Source: Haliclystus octoradiatus (lineage: Eukaryota > Cnidaria > Staurozoa > Stauromedusae > Haliclystidae). From it: DNA of 64,000 nucleotides. The first letter of the stretch is position 1. Each line of letters opens with the position of its first letter. Positions 18,601 to 54,630 of this stretch are shown one piece after another. The translations under genes and the position numbers were made by a program. The stretch is from positions 37,565,845 through 37,629,844 of the forward strand of contig OU744447.1 of the NCBI GenBank assembly GCA_916610825.1, written 5' to 3'. Under the pieces are notes generated by a model. That model ran no database searches. It was not told the DNA's origin and saw only the letters and a program-made list of their open reading frames with translations.

Positions 18601-21600
18601 AGCCTTCAAATATATGTTTGAACTGATGTAATCAGATGTCCTTCCGAATCAGAATGCGGAATATCAAGTGCGGGTTTCAAGTAATAAGATGCGTTCCTAC
18701 CTTGTATGGTTCGGGTGAGTAACATTTTGTTACAACTGAATCTTTTGTATACCCTGTGCCTCTTTCTGCCCGTTTGGAAATTGGTTGCGCATTCATTGGG
18801 TCCTGAAAAATATCGAACAAAGTCTCAAAAACATGTAGGGAAACTGATGATCTATAGGTCTAGACCTTTTTTGAATTTTGACGTCATAATCGAAATCAAC
18901 CTTGCAATTATATTGGCGTGTTCGTGTGTTTGTAAATTCTATAGGATAAACATCTTTAAATAATTCCCTTCCAAATTTGACGATAACGTTTTGGTTTTGC
19001 CAGAGGCTCAAAGCTGAAGAAGAATAGGAAACTCCAACGTATCATTAAAAAGTATTTCTGGACTAGTTTACATCAATTTGTTGAGTTTTTTCTTCTGGCT
19101 TTTGATCGGTAAAAGGCCTTACAATACTACTAGGCTGATTAAGGAGAAAAGTTACTCAGAAGTTCAAACTTATCCGATATTTTTACCCGTTATTTGACAG
19201 TGCTGCAACTATGCAATAAAATGTCACGCCCTATCCAATCAACGAAAATTATTAAAATTCAATTTTACTTCATATTTGGATCATTACAGCCTAGTAGAGG
19301 CGTCCTACGTGTTGTTTCATAATTATTTCATTATTTGCCAGGTGAAGGGTTAAAGAAATCATACCAAGAAAAGCTGTCTCGTTAAGAAATACTAACATTG
19401 TAGAGTTTTCATATAATCTGAGGACATACGCTTGCAAATGTTTGTATTCATATTTACTACACTCGTAAAAATTGGAAGACACTCAGGAAGTGTTAAATGC
19501 ACTCACCTCCGGCTCAAGCTTTCAACATTCTACTCCTGTCTCCCAACATCCTCATTTATTCAATATGAATACAAACAGGGTAACCAAGGGTGTGTTAACC
19601 CCTTATTGTTATTTAGTTGGAATATTCAAATGTGTAATACAATTCAGTCAAATGCGTAATACAATTCACAGATAACAAAATTTAGTTTAACCAATTCGAT
19701 ATTTTACATTTCGGCGAACTTAATCGACATGAAGGATTCAATTAGATTATACCTATAATACACTGTTCTTAAGTTTAATTTGTAGGAATGATATCTCATT
19801 AGATTTATCAGTTTTTGTGATGGAAATTTTAGCCGAAATAACGTTAAATCAATTCATAGTTGTTGAAATAAATTTTTTATTTTGTATTATATATAAATGT
19901 TTCAGACCTGTGTTGTGACCTGGCAGTCTGCATATAGCAATGCTACTTACCAGAGGTGTACGGAGTCCGAATCCAAGAAAATTACTTCTAGGAGTGTTTG
20001 ACTCCGATTCCGACTACGAAAATGTAAGAAAAATAGACTCCAACCCCGACTCCTGCACCGAAATATTTCGGACAAACTCGCGTAAATAGTTCGAAAACGG
20101 ATTAATTTATCTACTCAAAATTAAGCAAATATATACAAATAAACTAACATATTCTGAAATACGAGGGGAAATACCTAACCAATTCAGCCTCTATTTACAA
20201 TTTTCAACTTGCAAATAATTATTAAGAAATTACCAAGCCTGCATTCTGAGTCTCCGGCTCAGACTCCTTCTCCTGACTGGCAAAATAGTTCACTCCTGTG
20301 CCCGCGTCTCCTGTTAAAATGTGTGTACCCTGCCTGAGTGGGAATTAGACTCCGGTCCCTGTACACATCTCTGCCACTTACCATAATCCTAGGTGATCGA
20401 TTTGAGAAATCAGTTTTCATAACGCTAGAACCGATCGGCAGGTACCAGTTCTATAAATCAAATACATTCGTACATTATTATTTGAACGAACATTTTTAAA
20501 CAAAAAAAAAACAGGATGATACTAATTAATGTAGCAAAAATGACCAGTGAGCTCTACGCGTTTAGAGTTACATGCGTGTTTGTCGTTTGTATTGTTTGTG
20601 TGCCTGAAATCATACTGAAACTTGAAATTTGATGCCATGCCGAAGTCATGACCGACATTGATCGTTGAATTCAGGCAAGCAAAAACAAAACGACGATGGA
20701 TTTATGCATTGAAATGGTATTATCTTTCCGATAAACTATGCAACAAGTGTTGAGTTTTGCACCATTTTCATGAACACTTCTGAATAAAACTCACCCTTTC
20801 ATCATTATACGATTGTGAAGGAAGAAATGTGATTGGTTCAATATTTTGCGCATGCGTAAAGCCAGATCCTTCTTTTGGACCAACTGTTCTTTGTGAGATG
20901 TCAACTGAAAAATAATAAAGTGAAGAATGAACTCTATAGTCATCATCATTATCCGACATCATCATCAACATTTCTTCAGAAAATCTTACGAGAAAGAAAT
21001 ATAACATTTGATGAGTAGCTTCTTCTTAAAGCATTTAATAGCAAAAATCAAAGACAACAGTAATTTTGAAGATGTTTTATTGATAAAACTCAACGTTTTG
21101 GCCATCGTCTGTGACCATTTTCAAGAGTGAAAGAGATTTTATTTTATTAAGTTAACTTTTATACTGTAAGTAGTTAATTTATTTCTAATTTATGACTTGA
21201 ACTTCCTAGGTTACCTAATTGTAAAACGAAAAACAAAAAACTAAATTTTTGTTTGATAAAATAGAATAAGAAATTAACTTAAAATAATTTGGATCGTATT
21301 GAATCTGATTGACCATTCAGGTTTGATTGTAAGTCCCTGATAAAAAGTATTTCGTAAACGAGGCAGTCCCATTTGAAACTGCAATGTTTTAAAACTTTGT
21401 TCCTCGCTTTACACCAAAGAATAGAAGAGCACAGCAGAAAGAGTTCCGCAATTGAGAAACATATACAACAACACAATCAAACAATAGACGATGTAGTCGA
21501 TGATTTTAAAGTTTTAAAACATTGCAGCTCCAAACGGGACTTTAAATTATTTTAAGTCAATTTCTTATTCTATTTTATCAAATAAAAGTTGTTGTTTTTT

Positions 21601-24600
21601 GTTTTTTGTTTTATAATTAGGTAACCTAGGAAGTTCAAGTCATAAATTGGAAATATATTAATTATTTACAGTATAAAAGTTAACTTAATAAAATAAAATT
21701 TCTTTCACTCTTGAAAATGGTCACAGACTATGGCCAAAACGTTGAGTTTTATCAATAAAACACCTTCAAAATTACTGTTGTCTTTGATTTTTGTTATCAA
21801 ATATAACATTAACACAAGATAAGAAATATTCAGTATTTACAAAATAAAAATAAAAATAGAGAACTGAATAAAGTCGAACTTGTTAAATATCCTATATCTG
21901 ATGCAAATACAAACTAGGACATTGTATATTTTGCTTTCAATAGAGTAATAATGAAAGATACACCTCGTATTGATAAATTACATATGAAGTTCAAATATTT
22001 ATTTACATGATAAAATAATTAAGTCACCATCTCTACAATTAGTTAGCGGGACTTCAGGCACGATGCCTAACGAGCTACGACATCAGAAAGGTCTCTGATG
22101 AGTTCCTTGGCATAAACAAAACACGTGTCAGACCAGCCTCATCAATTGATTATTCAATCACGTTGTTATTCAACCTGGACTGCGCATGCGATATGCACCG
22201 AGGTTGTCACCATCTCTACAATTCGTTAGTGGGACTTCAGGCGCGATGCCTGACGAGCTAGGCGACATCAGAAAGGTCTCTGATGAGTTCCTTGGCAGGA
22301 ACGAAACACGTGTCAGACCAGCCTCATCAATTGATAAAATAAATAGTTGTTGAAATATGATAAAATCTAGATGGGATAATAGATAAAATTGGTCAAGATA
22401 TATGTTTTTAGACGTTGATAAATTGCTCATTCCAAGTCTCTGCTTCTCCGTCGGTGAACTTGGTATGGTAATAGTTCAAGAGCAGAGTTATTTGACTGAT
22501 TGTTGTCGCACGTCAAGTTAACAATTGGGGAACCTAAAATTATCTTGATTATTACCTGGCATAGGTCGATTACTGTCGTTAAATTTTGCGTGAGTTTCTG
22601 TTGAAAAACTTGCTGGACCCTTTAATAGAAAACCAAGATATACGGTAATATTTAAAGGCATAAAATTAACCATTCATTGCGCGTTGCGGGCTTAGAGTTA
22701 AAGCATGTATGCCAATTCTCAAGCCACAAGTGGTGTTTATCGTGCACCATATCGAAGAACGAGGACAAACTCCCATTAACAATTATTTAGAATAGGATAT
22801 ATAATTTTCTGTATCAAATTAATCTGATGTGGAAATGGAAATCGATAAATGCAAACATCTTCTTAGAGTTTCACGATGAATAGTAAATATGAATTATTTA
22901 GTTATTTTTAATTACAGCCTAACATTTCATATAGCGGCCACCTGTCAATAGTGGTCACTATTGCGATGTTTAAAGTAGTATTTGCTATTGAATTAACCCC
23001 GTATATAAAGACCACCAACACATAGTGGTCAAATCATAAATATCTCGTCTTCATTGTATAAATATATATCTCCGACGCTGTGGTCATTTTCAATTTTATT
23101 TTTTTCTACATTTTATTATGCAGTTATCTAAATTAAATGCTGTGATTAAAATTATTACTTTCTACAAGTTTTAAATTCTGATATTATTGAAGCATTATTT
23201 GATGCTTAATTAATTAACAATTGTGAAAGTATGATCGCTCCAATTATTTTATTTTCATTCATTTCATGATTTTAGTAATTAATTGCTTCTTTGAAAAACA
23301 TTTCAACATGAAATCATAGTCAATACAATAGAAATTTCAATTACATTGACATTTCGACAATGATGAAATATTTAAACACAGTTAAATTTATTCCCCCGTT
23401 TCGACTTTGACATCCTTTTGTCATCATCAAGGTTGAAAAAATTGTTTTTAAATCTGTAGAAGTTTGTTACACTTCTGTTATTATTCTTTAGGAGTATTTA
23501 ATCTTTCATTTCATTGTTACAGTATTCTTTAAGTCGATTCTCGTTATCCTTTCTTTCTAAACAAGTCTTCTTATTTTCTGTACTACGAATGATTTGATTT
23601 TAAACTTGAATTTTCAACTTTAAAATATAAAGTTTAAACATGAATTGGCGACATTTTACAAAATATTCCTCTCTCTTTCAGCTATTATTTGTCATCTGAC
23701 TTTGCAGTAGGCCCAGGCAGTATAGTTATAGTGTGGGATTATTTTTGTTTTTAAGACTAAAATCTGTTACAGTAGTTCGTTTGTTTCAATTTAGTTTTAA
23801 AGCTACATAGGATTACATATATTTAATTATTATATTAATTTATACTTTATTGTTTATTCTACATACATGACCAGCGTTTTCTTGTTCGACTGGATCTTTA
23901 TGTCGATGTATTAGTGGTTTATAAACTCCCTTTAACGCTCCAGTATGTTGCCTTGTGTTGAAGCAAACGGATCGAATCTAGAATGGATTATTGGATAGGT
24001 AAAAATGATCGGATTAGAACTATTTGAAATGCGTGATAAATAAGATACTGACTATCATAGCTGCAATATTTACTGATGGGGCTAACTTCAAATGGCTGGT
24101 ATACGGGGACGTGCCAATTATTGAGGGTACCTTTTCATTGTCTCTTGAGGTTTCGATTTCACTGAGAATTTTAAAAAAATCCAAAGGTATTGTTTTTAAT
24201 GAGAAAAATTGTTGACGGAAGTTCCCAAGAAATTGTAATCAATTTTCAAATGTGCGTTGATAACTAAAATATTTGGAAATTAAAATTTTTGGCCTGAATA
24301 AAATATTGAGGTATCAATTTTGGAAAATCAACATTATGGATGGCAAATTTCTCCATTCAAATTGGCTCCCCCTCCCCCAAATTGCACTTTTAAGCGGGTT
24401 ATACCGTATATTTTATTATGTTGATACGATATAGAAGGACATACATTAACATTGTCAAATATAAGTATGTTATATTTATTTATTTATTTATTATTTTACT
24501 ACAAACCGGGTAAGCTAGTAGCTTTCATTAACAAAGGCAGTTGGTTATTTGGTTAGTATATTTTGAGCGTACTGTGGGAGTTTAATGGCCGGATGGCATT

Positions 24601-27188
24601 ACCGACAGTCAACCAATAGAGATTCTGCTAGGAATTCAGATCAAGACCCTAAGGGTCGATGTCAAATGCCTTCCAAACCACCGCATTATAGTCACATTGA
24701 GATCAAGACCCTGAGGGTCTATGTCTAATGCCTGGCCAACCATTACATTATAAGGCACATTGAGATCAAGACCCTAAGGGTCTATGTCCAATGCCAGCCC
24801 AACCATTACATTATAAGGCACCTTGTTCCCTTTGTTCGATGAATGCATGATTATAGTACCTCGTAGTTAGTTGGGATTGTTCTTGGCATATCTCTTACAA
24901 AACCACTTTTAACCAAACTTGTTTGAGATGGAAGTGGTTCTTTGCCGTTTGGTCCAGTTACAGGTTGATAGTCTAACGTTGTAATGGTTTTGTAATTCGT
25001 GGCAATTGCTTTCCTGCAGAAAAACACACATAAAAAATGATCATTGTAAATTAATGATCATAGTGATCCTGAAGAAAATGATAACGTATTGCCCGACATT
25101 AACCTAATACGCGAGTTGAAAGAACGAAAGGTTTTGAAAATTATAATTTCAGAGGGGGCAGATGACCCCCTGCCCTTGGAGTGCAGGGCCAGCAAGTGCG
25201 CTTTTCGAAAATTGTGTAATACCTTTAATCAGCGCCTATTTGATTTGGGTTTTGTCACGTGTAAATTTGAAATTTTTTATTTGTTTTGCGTCCTAATACA
25301 AATCATTAATGGCAAATATCGATACCAATACATATGTTGCAAGATTGTCATTCAGAGATGATTCTTCAAAATGTTCCCTTTAAAGGGGCAAGATTGACCG
25401 GCGAGCACAAGTTGAATTTATGCTTAGCGTAATTCAACCGTCTCGCTTTGAAACTATTGTTCCACGCAGGCTTAATCTGTTATAAATCCATGTCAACAAT
25501 GTACATTATGTTATGAACAATAAACATGCACGTGATCCGAAGTGCGTAGCGCCTGCCGGTCATTTTTGCCCCTTTAAGTTTTCTCTGCCTGCACCTGACG
25601 CTCGATTTTTAATGTTCACCTCCTATACTGTTCAAACATTAATTATTGAATTCTTCTCTAAGATTCTGATACAGCATGGAGTTCTATAAATTTGTATAGG
25701 CAGAAAAATGTTACTTGTTTTTATAAAAAGGTGTAATAAGTTTGTGGAGAATTTACTTTTAAATAAAAATGTGTGCTATATATTTGTCAAACAGTGAAGT
25801 CAAAATTGTCAAAGGTTTTCAATGCATTTATCCCAATTTGCGGTTATCCAAAATTGTTTACCAAGGACTTGACTAAAAAATAGTTTATAGGGTTTCAAAG
25901 CTATAGGTTGCAAATTAGCGGGAATCTCACTTATCCGAATTGCACTTAAGCGGGTTACTAAGGGACCGCTCATTATTTATGACCGCGGTTGGGGCCGACG
26001 AGATTGGGCCCTTGGGTAAATAAAAATTATTGTCAAAAAAGGATGGGTAAACAAAAAGAAAATGACACAATGATATCACCATTTCCATTTAAAATGTATA
26101 AAGAGAGAGGTGATGCATTTTAAGCTCTCATTTTCATCTAAACCAGCAATTTTGTCAGTTGGCTTGAAACAAGAACTTCCATATCGTTGTGCTAGGAGTA
26201 TCAAAAACAAAGCACCTCGATATTTTACTTAGGGTTGGGTAAAACAAATTTTGACGTTCGTTATGGTTGGGTAAAAGGAATATATATGTGGAAAAATTGG
26301 AGCTCTTTAGCCAAACCCCGGTCATAAATAATGAGCGGTCCCTAAGCAAAACTATTTATTATTCATTATAATTTTCTACTATCTTCTATAGTATTTTTAT
26401 TGAAATCAACTAGCTCTTATAATCTTTCGTTTCAATGAATATATTCAGTTGTAGGTGAAGATTTCAATTTTTATGCTAATTCTGAAGATCGATATAAAAC
26501 AGTTAAGTGTGTTGAATGAAAATGCAAACAAATAATAATCGGATTGAGTGATTTATAATATTGAATTTAATGCCAACTTGCAACAGTTTCATAAGTAAAT
26601 ATAACTAAAATAGTCTATATATTACTTATATATAACCTCCAAAATCTAACTATAAATTCAAAAACAAAGTGTCTGATTAGTATATTGAATAAAATAAAAA
26701 TTGTTGGGCGTTCCTGGCGTCTCCTGCGCGTAGAAGACTTTCAAAGAAGGTATCAACTAAATTTAATTAAATCTCATGCGCGCAAATTGCAATATTTTCA
26801 ATCTGGGTTTTATTTAGTTGATTTAAGTATATATATTGTTGTATTTAATTTATAATTGTTTGTATCAAAACTTCCGGTCTCGAATGAAATATTGAAAAAA
26901 ATTCAAGCAACATTTCAAAAATTAAATGATTTGAATATATTTTGAAATATTAATTTTTACATACCCCATCGCTGGATTATCCATATCATCTAATCGACTT
27001 GTGTAATACATCCCAGGTCGAAAATTACTTTTATAACCTGTTCCAGTATGGCGTCCTAATCTTGGTAAAAAGTTTTCTTGTCCATAATGACTTGAGTATT
27101 CTGTAATATAAAACTTCATAATATTGCAATCTGGTCCTTTACTTGCTTTAATATGTGCACAACCTGGTCCATATTTAAGGCTACCCAT
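12560..27188 (-). CDS. SAXO4: SAXO4/PPP1R32 orthologue, ten exons, 380 aa
   Basis: Stabilizer of axonemal microtubules 4, a ciliary protein also called PPP1R32. Minus-strand exons: 27188-26965, 25013-24860, 22619-22556, 20904-20795, 18802-18701, 17772-17669, 15673-15592, 14562-14468, 13778-13617, 12605-12560; all GT..AG, 1143 nt in frame. Similarity to the vertebrate protein is recalled, not searched: exon 1 LKFY-like MKFYITEYSSHYG and HTGTGYKSNFRP (residues 47-58), DNPA (70-73); exon 2 YQPVTGPNGKEPLP; exon 4 VGPKEGSGFT (155-164); exon 8 EQSGFT; exon 9 YYNKNPIDNERMGR and LRDLHPYT. Length is close to the human 425 aa. It ends tail-to-tail with the synaptotagmin gene. The introns are filled with transposons, including a Penelope-like pair and a hammerhead insertion in intron 3. 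Exon 10 is the least certain part. Confidence 0.9.
13188..13292 (+). other. Short unassigned open frame with possible acceptor, inside SAXO4 intron 9
   Basis: On the plus strand, after ATTCCAGACAG, a 33-residue frame (begins QDEDPLRGARTHIATQ, ends DPYSALSRLKS) runs to a TGA. Its composition is more protein-like than its surroundings. No partner exon was found upstream on the plus strand, so I do not call it a gene. It might be a terminal exon of a nested gene, a decayed element or chance. Confidence 0.2.
13386..13582. mobile_element. ~195-bp foldback element in SAXO4 intron 9
   Basis: The left arm (TTAATTGGAAAAACACAAAA, ATTCATTTTTGCTACTTCAA, CACGCCTAAGCGATCATCAT) is repeated inverted in the right arm (TTGAAGTAGCAAAAACGAAT, GTGTTTTTCCAATTAA). 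The pair closes around an ATAGATTAG..CTAGTCTAT centre. Related single-arm sequences occur at 18160-18240 (+) and 28160-28230 (-). Confidence 0.75.
13801..13834. repeat. (ATC)n microsatellite
   Basis: Nine or so uninterrupted ATC units upstream of SAXO4 exon 9 (in intron 8). Confidence 0.8.
13962..14090 (-). mobile_element. tRNA-derived SINE, degenerate copy
   Basis: On the minus strand it shows a degenerate B-box (TAGTTCAAGCTCC, 14041-14029) followed by GTCAACTCAGCCTTGA and ACATTAAATGGCTACCATC, matching the copy at 16200-16334 in order and spacing. The A-box half is decayed. The 78-codon frame on the other strand at 13894-14130 is a by-product of the SINE. Confidence 0.65.
14467..14468 (-). 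other. SAXO4: SAXO4 exon 8/9 junction donor (phase 2)
   Basis: Exon 8 ends GCAAG before GTATTC; joined to exon 9 (ATATTATAATAAA..) it gives the codon AGA and the peptide ARYYNKNP, matching the family's NQGYF.N block. This junction confirms that exon 8 belongs to the gene. Confidence 0.7.
14625..14750. repeat. Dispersed 'GACAGGTGACCGC / TATACAGG' repeat
   Basis: Contains ATAGACAGATGGCTTTTATA, TTGATTCAATAGAAAATACT and GGTGACCGTTATAACAGG. The same word set appears at 22915-23045, 43095-43285 and, as a tandem array, at 53935-54190. Similar sequence is widespread in invertebrate genomes from general memory. It is non-coding. Confidence 0.65.
15300..15560. repeat. Relic of the GCCGGTCA / TTTAA short-element family
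   Basis: Contains GCACGTGACTCTAAGTGCGT, CGCCGGTCAATTTTGCTCCT followed by TTTAA and an adjoining AACTTTGAGCCTGCAAGGTG block. The first parts match the right half of the TTAA-flanked MITE copies at 25379-25577 and 60831-61037. An inverted relative lies at 20540-20670. Confidence 0.5.
16200..16334 (-). mobile_element. tRNA-derived SINE with intact A and B boxes
   Basis: Read on the minus strand from 16334: GGATTAGCTCAGATGGCAGA contains an A-box (TAGCTCAGATGG, 16330-16319) and GGTTCAAATCC (16274-16264) is a good B-box, 45-55 bp apart as in a tRNA. It is followed by a non-tRNA body (TCAACTCAGCCTTGAC, ATCAAATGAGTACCATCTG). The CAACTCAGCC..AGTACCA body recalls tRNA-SINE bodies of several marine invertebrates; that link is from memory. 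A free tRNA is unlikely because the acceptor stem does not close. It lies in SAXO4 intron 6. Confidence 0.75.
16936..17583. mobile_element. Full-length GGGGGTAACT-ended MITE (~648 bp)
   Basis: The left end AGGGGGTAACTCCA (16936-16949) and right end TGGAGTTACCCCCC (17570-17583) form a 12-13 bp terminal inverted repeat. After the left end comes GTTATACGGGGACGTG, shared with copies at 24075 and 44730. The interior shows no coding potential. This is the reference copy for the family, in SAXO4 intron 6. Confidence 0.8.
17863..18022. mobile_element. 160-bp foldback MITE with ~30-bp inverted ends
   Basis: The left end (TATGGCGAAAGAGTCAAAGA, ATACACATTC) is the inverted complement of the right end (GAATGTGTATTCTTTGATTC, TTTCGCTATA) with two mismatches. 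It lies in SAXO4 intron 5. Confidence 0.8.
18155..18240 (+). mobile_element. Penelope-like or hammerhead-like terminal fragment
   Basis: Contains CTTGCCTGATGATTGCCTTG, GCGTGAAAC and, 20 bp on, ATGAATGTCTGATTTTTTTC. The same ordered motif occurs at 28160-28230 (-) and within the foldback 13386-13582. CTGATGA..GAAAC recalls a hammerhead core, but the stems are not convincing in this copy. Confidence 0.4.
19950..20375. repeat. GACTCC-rich dispersed repeat
   Basis: Repeated GACTCCGA / CGACTCC words (20005-20070, 20250-20360) around an AT-rich core, like 4490-5010. It lies in SAXO4 intron 4. Confidence 0.55.
21042..21794. mobile_element. Head-to-head pair of truncated Penelope-like retroelement 3' ends
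   Basis: A 750-bp foldback. Minus-strand half (about 21404-21042): a frame encoding KVLKHCS..DCLVYEILFIRDLQ and NGQSDSIRSKLF, the C-terminal end of the GIY-YIG endonuclease of Penelope-like elements. Plus-strand half (about 21405-21794): LHQRIEEHSRKSSAIEKHIQ and FKVLKHCSSKRD, the segment just before it in the same protein, followed by an internal deletion and FKLF. Both halves continue into the same tail (TGGCCAAAACGTTGAGTTTT, then TCAATAAAACA and an AAAATCAAAGACAACAG end). Two 5'-truncated copies are therefore fused at about 21405 in opposite orientations. It lies in SAXO4 intron 3. Confidence 0.8.
22090..22134 (+). ncRNA. Hammerhead ribozyme motif, copy 1 (degenerate)
   Basis: Same layout as copy 2, with GGTCT/AGACC stem I and CTGATGA core (22095-22101). 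The stem II 3' strand is damaged (TAAAC instead of GGAAC) and the catalytic G12 is replaced by A at 22118 (AAAA instead of GAAA). Loss of G12 abolishes cleavage in characterised hammerheads, so this copy should be inactive. The G12 change is CG to CA, as expected from CpG decay. Confidence 0.75.
22275..22319 (+). ncRNA. Type I hammerhead ribozyme motif, copy 2 (core intact)
   Basis: Stem I GGTCT (22275-22279) pairs with AGACC (22315-22319). Core CTGATGA is at 22280-22286. Stem II GTTCC (22287-22291) pairs with GGAAC (22298-22302) across TTGGCA. G12-A13-A14-A15.1 is GAAA at 22303-22306. Stem III is the self-complementary ACACGTGT (22306-22313), and cleavage is predicted after C17 at 22314 in the triplet GTC. 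All conserved core bases are present. The very short palindromic stem III suggests a dimeric (double) hammerhead. The upstream CATCAGA can also pair with TCTGATG of the core, giving a competing inactive fold. Confidence 0.8.
22655..22800. repeat. Dispersed 'AAAGGCATAAA' repeat, partial
   Basis: Contains TTTAAAGGCATAAAATTAAC, CAAGCCACAAGTGGTGTTTA and GTGCACCATATCGAAGA, which match 43690-43785 and loosely 55500-55650. It begins beside SAXO4 exon 3, in intron 2. Confidence 0.5.
22915..23045. repeat. Dispersed TATAGCGGCCACC repeat
   Basis: Contains TATAGCGGCCACCTGTCAAT, AGTGGTCACTATTG, TTGAATTAACCCCGTATATA and AGACCACC, a member of the family noted at 14625 and 53935. Confidence 0.65.
23385..23460 (-). 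mobile_element. Penelope-like tail fragment (tentative)
   Basis: On the minus strand: CAACCTTGATGATGACAAAA, GGATGTCAAAGTCGAAACGG. The order 'TGATGA - short hairpin - GTCGAAACG' is typical of terminal repeats of Penelope-like elements, from memory of the family. No coding part is attached. Confidence 0.35.
24075..24410 (+). mobile_element. GGGGGTAACT-family MITE, third copy
   Basis: Left end GGGGCTAACTTCAAA, then GGTATACGGGGACGTGCCAA, ATTATTGAGGGTACC and near the right end TTCAAATTGGCTCCCCC. It aligns along its whole length with the copy at 44730-45062 in the same orientation. The outer ends are decayed. The 63-codon frame inside is not a gene. Confidence 0.7.
24638..24825. repeat. Three tandem copies of a 62-63 bp unit
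   Basis: Units start at 24638, 24700 and 24763 with AGATCAAGACCCT(A/G)AGGGTC; each contains a small palindrome (GACCCTNAGGGTC) and ends CATTATA(A)GGCAC. Units 2 and 3 are closest to each other. The array stops about 35 bp from SAXO4 exon 2 (in intron 2). Confidence 0.85.
25379..25577. mobile_element. TTAA-flanked MITE (piggyBac-like ends), copy 1
   Basis: The left end TTAAAGGGGCAAGATTGACC and right end GGTCATTTTTGCCCCTTTAA form imperfect terminal inverted repeats of about 19 bp directly bordered by TTAA on both sides. TTAA target duplication is the piggyBac signature. A second copy at 60831-61037 has the same ends and interior (GAGCACAAGTTGAATTTATG). It lies in SAXO4 intron 1. Confidence 0.8.
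25972..26342. mobile_element. 371-bp MITE with 24-bp TIRs and TAA target duplication
   Basis: The left TIR GGGACCGCTCATTATTTATG (then ACCG) is the exact inverted complement of the right TIR (CGGT then CATAAATAATGAGCGGTCCC). It is flanked on both sides by TAA (25969-25971 and 26343-26345). A 3-bp TWA duplication suggests the PIF/Harbinger group. Near-identity of the TIRs points to a young insertion. A 64-codon frame inside is not a gene. It lies in SAXO4 intron 1. Confidence 0.85.
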
Positions 27189-31733: not shown

Positions 31734-34700
31734 ATGTCTCTAGCTAGAGTCTCATCATCAGCTGTCCTTAGCTCTAACGCTAGAGGTCATTCAACAAATC
31801 TGTCATCCACTTCATCAGTATCTAGTCGTCAGAATTTTACAATGGCATCTACAGTTACTTCTAATTCATCTATTCGTGGTCGAAAACGTACTGCTTCTTC
31901 GCGATTACCAGCGAAATTGAAGGAACCCGCTGCTGTTGCAAGGAGAAATGCACGAGAGAGAAGACGAGTAAAAATGGTTAATGATGGATTTACACGATTG
32001 AGAAAACATGTACCAACCGATCCAAAGAATAAGAAATTATCTAAGGTTAAAACATTACGTTTGGCAATTGATTATATTAAACATTTACAACAAATTTTAA
32101 CTGAAAATGCATCGAAACCAAATCATTTAATTGCGGCTGCCTATTCTTTACCTAATGTTGGAGATGATATTGATACCGTTACTGCTGCATGGCTACAAGA
32201 CGGATTGGTAAGTGTTAAAATATTCTTCTTATATTTTATGATGTTCTTAAAGCTATACAATGATGCAGTATATGACATAGAAATCTAAACACACTTTTGT
32301 AAGAATATTCTGTATATCAAATGCTGGAAAAGTATATATTCAACAAAACTTTAAGAAGATTTTAAATATTTGAGGCAGACATTTCAGTCTCATTTCAACT
32401 TTTCATATTTTATGAAAAAAACGTTGTATTCAAAATCAGATTTTATATATGTTACTATATACATAGTAATGGAAATTAGACGAATATTTTACTGTGGGGG
32501 TCAAAAACGATAGCCAGTTAATTAATATAGACGATTGCGCTTTGCTTTGAAAAACTTTTATAATTGGAAATATTTTTTAATAATTTTTAAAAGTTTTAAT
32601 GAATACTAAATATTTAAATGCTTACAAATAATTTTATGTACAATAAGAAAAGCATACGAAATAAAATACCTAGGCAGTTTTTTTTTATTGGTGTAAAAGC
32701 GTATAGCTATAGTTTATTATCAGTAAATCTTATAACCGCAGTATTACTTCCAAGAGATTTTGAAATAAATAGTATATATATATATTATTTACAGAGTTTT
32801 ATATAATTTTCTATGAGAATTTCATAAAATAAAATGTATTTATTTGTCGAAGTTTAACACGTGATTCGGTTTAAAATTTTGTGCAAATATAGTTTTGTAT
32901 AAAAAATAATTGACAAATACATAGAAAGAGTCTGAACATTTTGTATTGTCATCGAATATTATTAAAAATCTTCAAATTCGCTCGTTTTATGCCCAAACAA
33001 ATAAATCGAAAAATATTAGTGGGAAAATAGAATGATAAAAGTATAGTATTTTTCTAAATGTGTTGACGCCAGTTGATATGAAATTTCATTGTAAAATTTA
33101 AATTCAAATAGAAGAGTTGGAGTATATAATAGATTTGAATTATAAAGATAGCTAAAAATATATATATATATATATTTTTTTAATTAATTGACGTATGCAT
33201 TCGCTATAGTACATGCAGTTGCTATTCAAATTTTTTCAAATTGTTCGGCCATGTAATTAATAAGTTTGATTTGTAAATCGATTTTGTTCATTAGCTGAAA
33301 CAAAGATTATCGCTTCTTTTAGTTTCTCAGTGTCTATACCACTCAATAATTAATAAGGCTCATGTTTGAACTCAACTGAAAAATCAGTTTCTAAAAAGTG
33401 ATTAAAAAAATAGCGCTTGTATAGTTTTGGTATATTCAAAATTACATATGATATTATACTGTAGATATCCCTTATATAATCAAAATCCAATAAAAAAATT
33501 GAAATTTGAATAATTTCCTTCGATTTATAATTACATCTAACAAGTGCGTTACATTCGCTATGTCCCCCACCCATTTCGTGAAAATTTCCACAGATTTATT
33601 TAATCAGCTATTTTTTATCATATATATATATAGTAGAGTCTAATTAGTTTAAATTGGAAACTGTTGTTATTCTTTCTCTCAAGTATTACATTTTTTTACC
33701 GTGTGAATAGTTACATTAAGCAGAAGGGGAATTCTCATGTAAGTAAATAAATCCTTTCTTTTGAACGCCATTTTTAAAGAAAGTCAAAACCCGGAGCCGA
33801 TCAACTTATTGGTCTTATTGAGCAAATGAAAAAATAGAATTTTGTAATGGATTTCAAAAACAAATAATGTTTTAGTGAATGACACATCGGACATATTTTG
33901 CTAAATATATATCCTATAGCTTTCAATTATATATTCCTTGCCTTAATTTTTACTTTATGCTGCTATTTATTTACAACTTTTCCCATCAAATATAATAACT
34001 CGATTGATTTTGCTAATATGAAAATCTGTTGAAAATGATTTTATAAACTTTCATAAAAATATATATTCAAAATGAGGCATACATATGTATAACAAATTTT
34101 GTTATCATAAAAAATCTCTAAATTGTTTTTGTTGTTTTTAATAATAGCGTCAGGATTATTTCAATCAAACAGTGAATTTATTAAGTCAAATATGATATGT
34201 AATCCTCTAACTTTTATATAAAACAATGCAATGGTTAGTGAATAGTGATAATGATAGCCGGAATGATAGTGTATATATGGAATTTTATCAAGGATTTAGT
34301 TGGAAGAAAACATGCTTTATAATCCATACTAAGTTTGATTATATCTGTAAAGCGAGACTGCAAATTTAATAATTCATTTGAAAAACAAGATCACTATATG
34401 TCTATATGGCATCTCATCGATTTGAAACTTGTCAAAAATTGAAAATCAAAGATTCTTAATAATTCTGTGTAAAGAAATATATATTTGGTGATAATGAAAA
34501 CCCTTTACTATAGTTTCAACGAGCGAGCAATTATTATTTTACTGTTTATGCACATTTGAAAAAAATCTAAAATTTTCTACCAAACTGCCTTTCCTGCTTC
34601 ATCCGTGATCCGGTAATCCGTATAATACTCTATAAAAAATTACTATGAAAAGAAACTGGAAAGTCATTTATACTGAATTGAAATTTTCGTTTATCCATGT

Positions 34701-52700: not shown

Positions 52701-54630
52701 AACAGTGCTAGCGATTGTATCCAAAACATTGCGGGGATAGGTCCAACTGGGTCCAACGCCCTAGCAATATATTCAGCTTATCAGTACTGATCTGCATATT
52801 TGAGAGTTTCAGTACTGCCATACTAATACCTTCAAAAGTTAACGATGTTCGCAATTTGTGTCTCAAAATTGCCTGAAATTGTCTCAAACGTTTTTTGTTT
52901 TTTTTTGGGGGGGGGGTATCACTTGTGTCTCCAGGAATTACTTGTTGATTATTACTTGATGGTTCTGAACTTGCATAATCATCCAGAATCTTCTTCTTCG
53001 TTTCTAGCTTTGATTGTAAGATGTTTAACAAAACGTTTCCTACCTGAATATATCAAAGGCCGTGATACATCAGATGTTTTTAAAACACAAAATGACGAAC
53101 AAACGGCGGTTAACCTTGAATTGTACGATTGTAATAACCAGGTAAGTCAATAATTATCAAATTTAAAAGTATAAAATGATATTATCCGTATTGTACGATC
53201 CATAATTAATTCGCAATCGAAGTGTTGAATCAATCAATTACATAATCAGAACATTGTGTACCAGTAAATTTATGGCCATACTCTTCTTACCTCAAATTCC
53301 GGTTGGGGGGGGGGGTAAAAATCCCATACGATGGCTATACGGGACATGCCACTTTTTGTTCCTTATTCAAGATGAGAAAAATATCTTTTGGTTGGGAAAT
53401 TTAAGATATTGTAACTTTTTAGGTCAACTTTTTTTCCTTTCTAGATAAGTTTGAAATTCAAAGAGATTTGAAAAACAAATAGAGTATTGAACTTTTTTAT
53501 GTTGTAACTTTTTGAGTCTCCTTTTTGGCTTTCTAGAGAAATTTGAAATTTGGAGAATAAAAATAAAAAAATTGAATGTTTTTTATAACTTTGTTCTAAT
53601 GTAAACATTTTATTGAAAAATAGTCCAGCTCAAGTACTTTAGACTGCCAGTTCACTTGACTGTCATATTGACGAAGGTATAAAACTCTCGATATTGAAGT
53701 TTAAATTAAATTACTAATGTCTCTGCTGTAATCGGATTTATTTAATCTCTGGCACTACCCACAGATCATATGAATCCGATTAAAAATTATCTTTAAATGA
53801 GCCTTTTATTACATCCTCTCAAAAGATATAAATCGATATTGTACTGAGTACTGTACATATAAATAATAAAACTTGTGCAATATTTGCTATCCATCTATCG
53901 ACGTCTGGATTTTATAGCTAAATCTGGGTTGATTCAATTGGAATACTATTATGGACATTGCTAGAGTGACCACTATATATAGGTGGTCTTTACATACAGG
54001 ATTGATTCAATAGAAAATACTATTATGGACATTGAAATAGTGACCACTATAGACAGGTGACCGCTATATATAGGTGGTCTTTACATACAGGGTTGATTCA
54101 ATAGAAAATACTATTATGGACATTGAAAGAGTGACCACTATAGACAGGTGACCGCTATATAGAGGTGACCGTCTTAGCAGGTTTACATACATAGTAATCA
54201 AGATGTATCTTGTTTTGCATGTTAGGATCAAAATACAATCGCTTCAGCTGATGGATTTGTGCTCATTTACAGCGTAGCAAATCGCAGTACTATGAAATTG
54301 CTATTACAGAAACTAGATATGATTAGAAATATACATGGCGGTGACATACCAATTGCAATCGTAGCAAATAAAAGAGATTTAAATCACTTAAGAAATGTAT
54401 CAACTGTTGAAGGTATTGAATTTGCAAGTGTTAACAAAGCAAGTTTCTTCTGTGAATTATCAGTGGCAAAAGATTATGAAACGATACCACAATTATTTGT
54501 TGAACTTTTCAAATGTATTGAAACGAGAAGAACAGATGTTATCTTACAAAGACGTGCTATTAAACCAAAACGAGTCAACAAAATGATGATGAATATTAAA
54601 GATATGGTGAAAAGAACAAATAACCAATGA
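46743..54630 (+). CDS. RERG/RASL11-like small GTPase with degenerate switches, three exons, 223 aa
   Basis: Exons 46743-46875, 53008-53141, 54226-54630; phases 1 and 0. The start is ATG 46743. A basic 30-residue N-terminal extension precedes G1 GEAGVGKT (37-44), then LIVRCLTKRFLPEY (46-59), which closely matches RERG/RASL11 proteins as I recall them. The G2/switch I region (60-75) lacks the usual YDPTLE.TY. G3 reads DCNNQ (85-89) where DTAGQ is expected, so the invariant Gly of DxxG is missing, and the switch II segment before GFVLIYS is about 8 residues shorter. G4 NKRD (137-140) and a G5-like ELSVAKD are present. The tail is basic with no CAAX box, as in RERG. It probably binds nucleotide but may hydrolyse or signal abnormally. 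Role unknown; related proteins restrain growth signalling. Confidence 0.85.
52045..52460 (+). repeat. Dispersed repeat family C, copy 4, split by an insertion
   Basis: The left part (GATGCCAGTCACATGATTTT, CAAAGCCAGGTTCGTGAATT) ends at 52166 and the right part resumes at about 52355 (AAAACCTAGTTTTCAATAGA, ACGAGAATGACAACTTTCGA, AGATAGCTCCG). Together they match 42715-42905 in order. Confidence 0.65.
52154..52354. mobile_element. 175-bp insertion with 13-bp target-site duplication
   Basis: GAATACCCTTTTG occurs at 52154-52166 and 52342-52354, flanking 175 bp (52167-52341) that is absent from other copies of repeat family C. The insert has no clear terminal inverted repeats and no frame. A 13-bp duplication fits target-primed retrotransposition of a short non-autonomous element. 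Confidence 0.75.
53300..53480. mobile_element. GGGGGTAA-family MITE relic
   Basis: A run of G followed by GTAAAAATCCCATACGATGG, CTATACGGGACATGCCA and AGATGAGAAAAATATCTTTT resembles the left part of the 16936-17583 copy. The right end was not found. It lies in GTPase intron 2. Confidence 0.55.
53935..54190. repeat. Tandem array of the TATAGCGGTGACC repeat
   Basis: Three units, the last two about 91 bp apart: each has CTATTATGGACATTG, AGTGACCACTATAGACAGGT, GACCGCTATATA, GGTGGTCTTTACATACAGG and TTGATTCAATAGAAAATA. It ends only about 35 bp from GTPase exon 3. Confidence 0.8.

Follow-up and report, generated by a model that had tools for sequence, protein, structure and literature searches.

RESULTS

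A short tandem element within an intron of SAXO4

The window, the whole 64,000-nucleotide stretch of Haliclystus octoradiatus DNA that was analysed, carries on its minus strand a SAXO4 gene, identified by matches to PPP1R32/SAXO4 chains. One intron of this gene holds a retrozyme insertion, near which lies an inverted pair of Penelope-like fragments. The features, in window positions, are:

20795..20887, minus strand: SAXO4 exon downstream of the retrozyme (TVGPKEGSG...), end approximate
20997..21008, unstranded: left-hand 12-bp repeat AAATATAACATT flanking the Penelope pair
21009..21798, unstranded: two 5'-truncated Penelope-like family 2 copies, inverted, 3' ends outward
21799..21810, unstranded: right-hand 12-bp repeat AAATATAACATT flanking the Penelope pair
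22008..22018, unstranded: perfect 11-bp target duplication TGATAAAATAA, 5' copy
22019..22331, plus strand: retrozyme insertion, about 1.7 units of about 185 bp, the first 4 bases lying outside the unit
22091..22134, plus strand: first hammerhead, broken, limits set by homology to the second copy
22276..22318, plus strand: second hammerhead, of type I with intact core and helices, matched by Rfam
22326..22330, plus strand: ATCAA, 3' terminus of family copies and presumed start of reverse transcription
22332..22342, unstranded: perfect 11-bp target duplication TGATAAAATAA, 3' copy
24851..25012, minus strand: open frame holding the next SAXO4 exon, ends approximate
26922..27188, minus strand: open frame holding the first SAXO4 exon, exon end approximate

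Minus-strand SAXO4 exons flank the retrozyme on both sides (at about 24.9-25.0 kb and 20.8-20.9 kb), so the intronic position given by the first-pass annotation holds. A candidate SAXO4 exon at 22518-22673 was rejected for want of a match. As SAXO4 is on the minus strand, the retrozyme is antisense to it, and SAXO4 pre-mRNA would therefore contain the complement of the hammerhead. Elsewhere in the window there is a 91-bp tandem repeat (53966-54167; 2.2 copies, 96% matches), and the open frames at 31734-32288 and 54259-54630 hold a helix-loop-helix domain and a partial Ras domain.

The two-copy structure, the perfect 11-bp target duplication and the insertion of about 1.7 units, all proposed by the first-pass annotation, were borne out: 313 bp lie between the direct repeats, and the tandem blocks consist of a 73-nt pair spaced 185 nt apart (96% identical) and a 55-nt pair spaced 183 nt apart (93% identical). 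The element had also been read as of retrozyme type with a type I hammerhead, and a covariance-model search agrees: in 801 bp of sequence, Rfam Hammerhead_1 (RF00163) matches 22276-22318 at E 0.0011, with a score of 25.2 bits where the curated cut-off is 34. A scan of the whole window at that cut-off returned no hammerhead, and the 801-bp search matched the second copy only, with no match to the first. In the first copy G12 is replaced by A and three of the five helix II pairs are formed. The cut sites, which we take from the GUC rule to lie after 22129 and after 22314, are 185 nt apart. Because the first ribozyme is broken, a transcript of this copy would be cut once at most, and the 185-nt monomer RNA that had been predicted is unsupported here. 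The broken hammerhead and the antisense orientation suggest that the window copy is probably a dead, decayed product rather than an active source. The element itself is almost certainly a non-autonomous metazoan non-LTR retrozyme, a kind already known.

The retrozyme family across the genome

The published genome of H. octoradiatus comprises 262 Mb on nine chromosomes (PMC9975415); our searches covered 261,861,806 bases in 33 contigs. A DNA search with the retrozyme gave 62 matched pieces (from the best 40 of 612 candidates scored), and a 22-base cut-site motif, with up to two mismatches allowed, was found at 328 places, against none for the reversed pattern; the window element is thus not a chance arrangement, and the further genomic copies foreseen earlier do exist. 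The exact motif had no match in viral or GTDB contigs. We assembled 98 loci (L016-L113) from the 40 best DNA matches and 58 further places with the exact motif, which is present in 90 of the 98. The 58 were taken from among 100 of the 328 places, and since none of these 100 is on contig C11, the sample is no census.

The unit is 183-188 bp long, with a GC content of 0.49 in the query unit, barely under 50%. The locus spans more than 190 bp in 45 of the 98 and less than 183 bp in 51. Core and helices are kept in 83 of 116 complete hammerheads, and one helix II pair, read in 127 units, is T-A in 102, C-G in 16, T-G in 4, C-A in 4 and C-T in 1. A genome search with RF00163 gave seven matches, none above the cut-off; four (L009, L010, L012, L015) belong to the retrozyme family and three (L011, L013, L014) do not. 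When 16 loci were scanned at E 0.5, hammerheads were matched in five, with none in six retrozyme loci (L016-L020, L026). Divergence from the majority is of similar size for the retrozyme (4.3-4.9%) and for Penelope-like family 2 (3.0%, over 43 columns). In the predicted unit circle 59% of the bases pair, and compared with mononucleotide-shuffled sequences the circle shows no exceptional stability (z -0.56).

Some loci have histories of their own. L024 (G000:C7:7650317-7652822) is an array of about 2.5 kb with a 144-bp period and at least 14 GAAACACGTG motifs, flanked by 12-bp repeats; its outer pieces, at both ends, are closer to the normal unit, and the array has therefore probably expanded since it was inserted. 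L018 and L061, about 28 kb apart on G000:C1, have identical flanks and duplication and contain 1.65 and 0.65 units; they are a segmental duplication with one unit lost. L031 (C4:8330145) and L054 (C6:13029128) are both inserted in the target word AAATAGGTA, within similar flanks, and differ in their 5' ends and tails. The mitochondrial contig (18,316 bp) has a DNA-polymerase-like frame, and its cox1 gene, which contains TGA, runs opposite to the majority of the genes; we recognise these features as medusozoan.

Ends and target duplications

Across the 98 loci the 3' ends are concentrated at ATCAA, which lies about 14-19 nt beyond the ribozyme cut site. They take two forms, GACCAGCC-TCATCAA and GACCAGCC-GCTTTATCAA, with the final words CTCATCAA and TTATCAA. 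Among the 62 loci whose duplication was kept, ATC/AA falls inside the boundary interval in 41; the remaining 21 have another end point or an altered tail. The 5' ends are variable, without a fixed terminal repeat, and truncated at many different positions, so that the copies retain about 0.2 to 3.7 units (the L024 array apart). Among the 90 exact-motif loci they are commoner at unit positions 1-20 (21 loci) and 121-140 (20 loci). A stop after exactly one turn was considered and dropped, as 12 of the 90 ends at positions 60-73, against an estimated 7 or so if ends were uniform, is too weak an excess.

A duplication score of at least 11 was reached by 51 of the 98 loci, compared with 10 of 980 mispaired controls, and no duplication is kept in 36. 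Kept duplications measure 11-13 bp in 40 of 62 (median 12) and range from 9 to 17 bp, besides two of 29 and 30 bp in trinucleotide repeats; all duplication counts include these two, the self-matches at L016 and L051 (where the end of the element matches its start) and L018 and L061 counted separately despite their common duplication. The duplications have an AT content of 0.82, compared with 0.67 in the outer flanks. A paralogous empty site for L020 lies within the right flank of L016. T occurs at nick positions -1 and -2 with frequencies of 0.26 and 0.27, so the nick is not preceded by TT. None of the 98 loci held a further copy in the reverse orientation.

The common 3' end, the truncated 5' ends and the target duplications together make it very likely that the copies were inserted by target-primed reverse transcription. 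As the 3' end lies some 14-19 nt past the cut, the template would not be the linear monomer released by the ribozyme; it would be either resealed or never cut.

Units within a locus were also compared. Two-unit copies have 3 of 57 private variants in common under the stricter trimming. Over 1146 columns, 57 changes fall in their 5' units as against 27 in their 3' units (23 loci, 2 of them without usable columns; 12 versus 3 loci, sign test, p 0.035). These two results do not favour copying from one clean circle. The argument that common private variants prove a circle was rejected: 8 are common to both units in 19 two-unit loci, against 1.9 for random pairing, and L038 and L107 account for 6 of these.

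Penelope-like elements with matching ends

The genome contains 44 GIY-YIG matches; 30 were fetched, many of them Penelope-like by eye, and in L130 RT motifs and a GIY-YIG domain were judged by eye to lie in one frame. Penelope-like family 2 (L133 and relatives) gave 43 matches from the best 40 of 245 candidates scored. The pair in the window, about 200 bp from the retrozyme, belongs to this family; one copy terminates in GTTATCAAA and the other in CTACTCATCAAAT. With one end of each form and flanking 12-bp repeats (20997-21810 overall), the pair looks as though both target strands had been extended. Flanking repeats of 11-12 bp occur in three of four inverted family 2 pairs, the fourth having none; in the control the maximum was 10, reached once in 249. 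These 11-12 bp compare with the retrozyme median of 12.

Of 23 family 2 ends that were read, 12 stop at GTTATCAAA and the other 11 extend to CTACTCAT(CAAAT), i.e., CTACTCATC(AAAT); among the longer ends, those of L158, L162 and L165 go no further than CTACTCAT, where the letters are altered in L151 and L163. The final words CTCATCAA and TTATCAA are thus those of both retrozyme tails and both family 2 ends. This match of 7-8 bases was noticed by looking, so that the chance of an anchored 8-base match, roughly 1 in 20,000 per comparison over 12 comparisons, is a rough guide only. The comparison took in three further retroelement families, in a genome with very many more RT copies (7,639 first-look candidates, the best 150 scored): Penelope families 1 and 3 have 3' ends unlike the retrozyme tails, and one LINE-like family has a different 3' end with an (AC)n tail. 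In family 2 the distance from a hammerhead-like stretch to the two ends is about 55 and 82 nt, compared with 14-19 nt in the retrozyme. Rfam found no match to this stretch in L133, L147 or L156. An end at TTTTATCAAT, beside the hammerhead-like stretch, was rejected, as none of the 23 ends stops there.

DISCUSSION

Our results suggest a route by which this retrozyme may spread. The retrozyme RNA would be cut and then resealed, or it would persist as an uncut multimer. AT-rich DNA would be nicked by the enzyme of Penelope-like family 2; the last TT of the target strand would pair with the AA of AUC-AA within the retrozyme RNA, and copying would begin there, occasionally proceeding beyond one full turn. 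Judged from sequence, family 2 is somewhat favoured as the source of the moving enzyme. The whole chain, with target-primed insertion on a joined or multimeric template by this enzyme, stands at about even chances.

There is a negligible probability that the repeat is an ordinary satellite or that its likeness to a hammerhead arose by chance. The 144-bp-period array of about 2.5 kb at L024 would suit a satellite, and Rfam scores under the cut-off would suit a chance resemblance, but the copies are dispersed with target duplications, they have their 3' end in common, a helix II pair shows compensatory change, and even L024 is flanked by 12-bp repeats. We reject this explanation on the motif counts (328 places versus 0) and the duplications (51/98 versus 10/980). 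It is less easy to set aside a LINE-type enzyme as the mover, with the resemblance to Penelope ends a coincidence; we consider this improbable on balance, though a serious competitor. A constant 3' end, 5' truncation and duplications of 9-17 bp are also compatible with LINE activity, and RT copies with long open frames are numerous in the genome. L1-type enzymes prefer TTTT/AA targets, however, and the T frequencies of 0.26 and 0.27 before the nick are unlike that preference. In addition, the sole LINE-like family compared has an (AC)n tail, whereas the two alternative ends of a single Penelope family match both retrozyme tail forms.

A further rival reading concerns the form of the template. 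The template may be an uncut multimeric transcript instead of a circle, which would make the ribozyme dispensable for movement. Few private variants are common to the units of two-unit copies (3/57), as this would predict, and ribozyme mutants of a lizard Penelope element left in vitro insertion unchanged (PMC11167929). It can be argued, on the other hand, that linear copying with 5' truncation would lose units every round; the hammerhead core is also largely intact (83/116), and neighbouring units of the three-unit locus L036 have 10/15 and 13/18 private variants in common, although homogenisation of the array could explain this as well. We regard the uncut multimer as unlikely. A circular template is plausible and, of the template forms, the one we consider rather probable, on the argument that tandem copies need to be renewed.

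More tentatively, animal retrozymes in general may be parasites of Penelope-like elements. Their tails would mimic both internal start sites of a resident Penelope RNA, so that the Penelope enzyme would start on the resealed circle just past the cut and could continue for more than one turn. We hold this to be possible, with the odds slightly against it. If it is true, the missing partner of animal retrozymes has been named. The anatomy of the ends gives a sequence-level lead to the enzyme that copies these elements, one that can be followed in other animal genomes.

A literature search found no report of hammerhead ribozymes in Staurozoa, and neither Staurozoa nor Haliclystus is named in the main text of the metazoan retrozyme paper (PMC7229834). 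The portions of the retrozyme and Penelope papers available to us (PMC7229834, PMC7761336, PMC11167929) contain no description that we could find of a fixed 3' end, tail forms or a partner match. The stalked jellyfish is an addition to the hosts of metazoan non-LTR retrozymes, and the insertion anatomy of 98 loci is the new part.

Comparison with known systems

Cervera and de la Pena (2020) described metazoan non-LTR retrozymes with units of 150-450 bp, type I hammerheads and target duplications of more than 4 bp, and proposed Penelope-like elements as their partner on circumstantial grounds (PMC7229834). The present family resembles those in that account in its small, tandem, non-coding units (183-188 bp) with a type I hammerhead, in its duplications of more than 4 bp and in the presence of Penelope-like elements in the same genome; it differs in that few of its copies are multimers and in being known here from DNA alone. 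Metazoan retrozymes are further characterised by a GC content under 50%, the lack of a primer-binding site and purine tract, a highly self-paired circle, self-cleavage, and expression as both linear and circular RNA.

For the lizard Penelope enzyme, Frangieh et al. (2024) report that copying starts inside the RNA, at two sites that match the genomic tail, and that AT-rich DNA is favoured (PMC11167929). The retrozyme is similar to that system, as reported there, in its AT-rich targets, its two alternative 3' ends and a putative copying start within the RNA, downstream of the hammerhead. Unlike Penelope-like elements, it has no coding sequence, its end is nearer the cut site (PMC11167929) and inverted pairs number 0 among 98 loci. 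The lizard start site is described as not homologous to the target (PMC11167929), whereas an AA overlap is common in the retrozyme.

Plant LTR retrozymes, of 600-1000 bp, have type III hammerheads, LTRs with a primer site and a purine tract, and 4-bp duplications (PMC7761336, PMC7229834). Like the plant elements described in these papers, the jellyfish element is non-autonomous, ribozyme-carrying and tandem or dimeric; its hammerhead, however, is of type I, not type III, and its duplications are 9-17 bp, not 4 bp.
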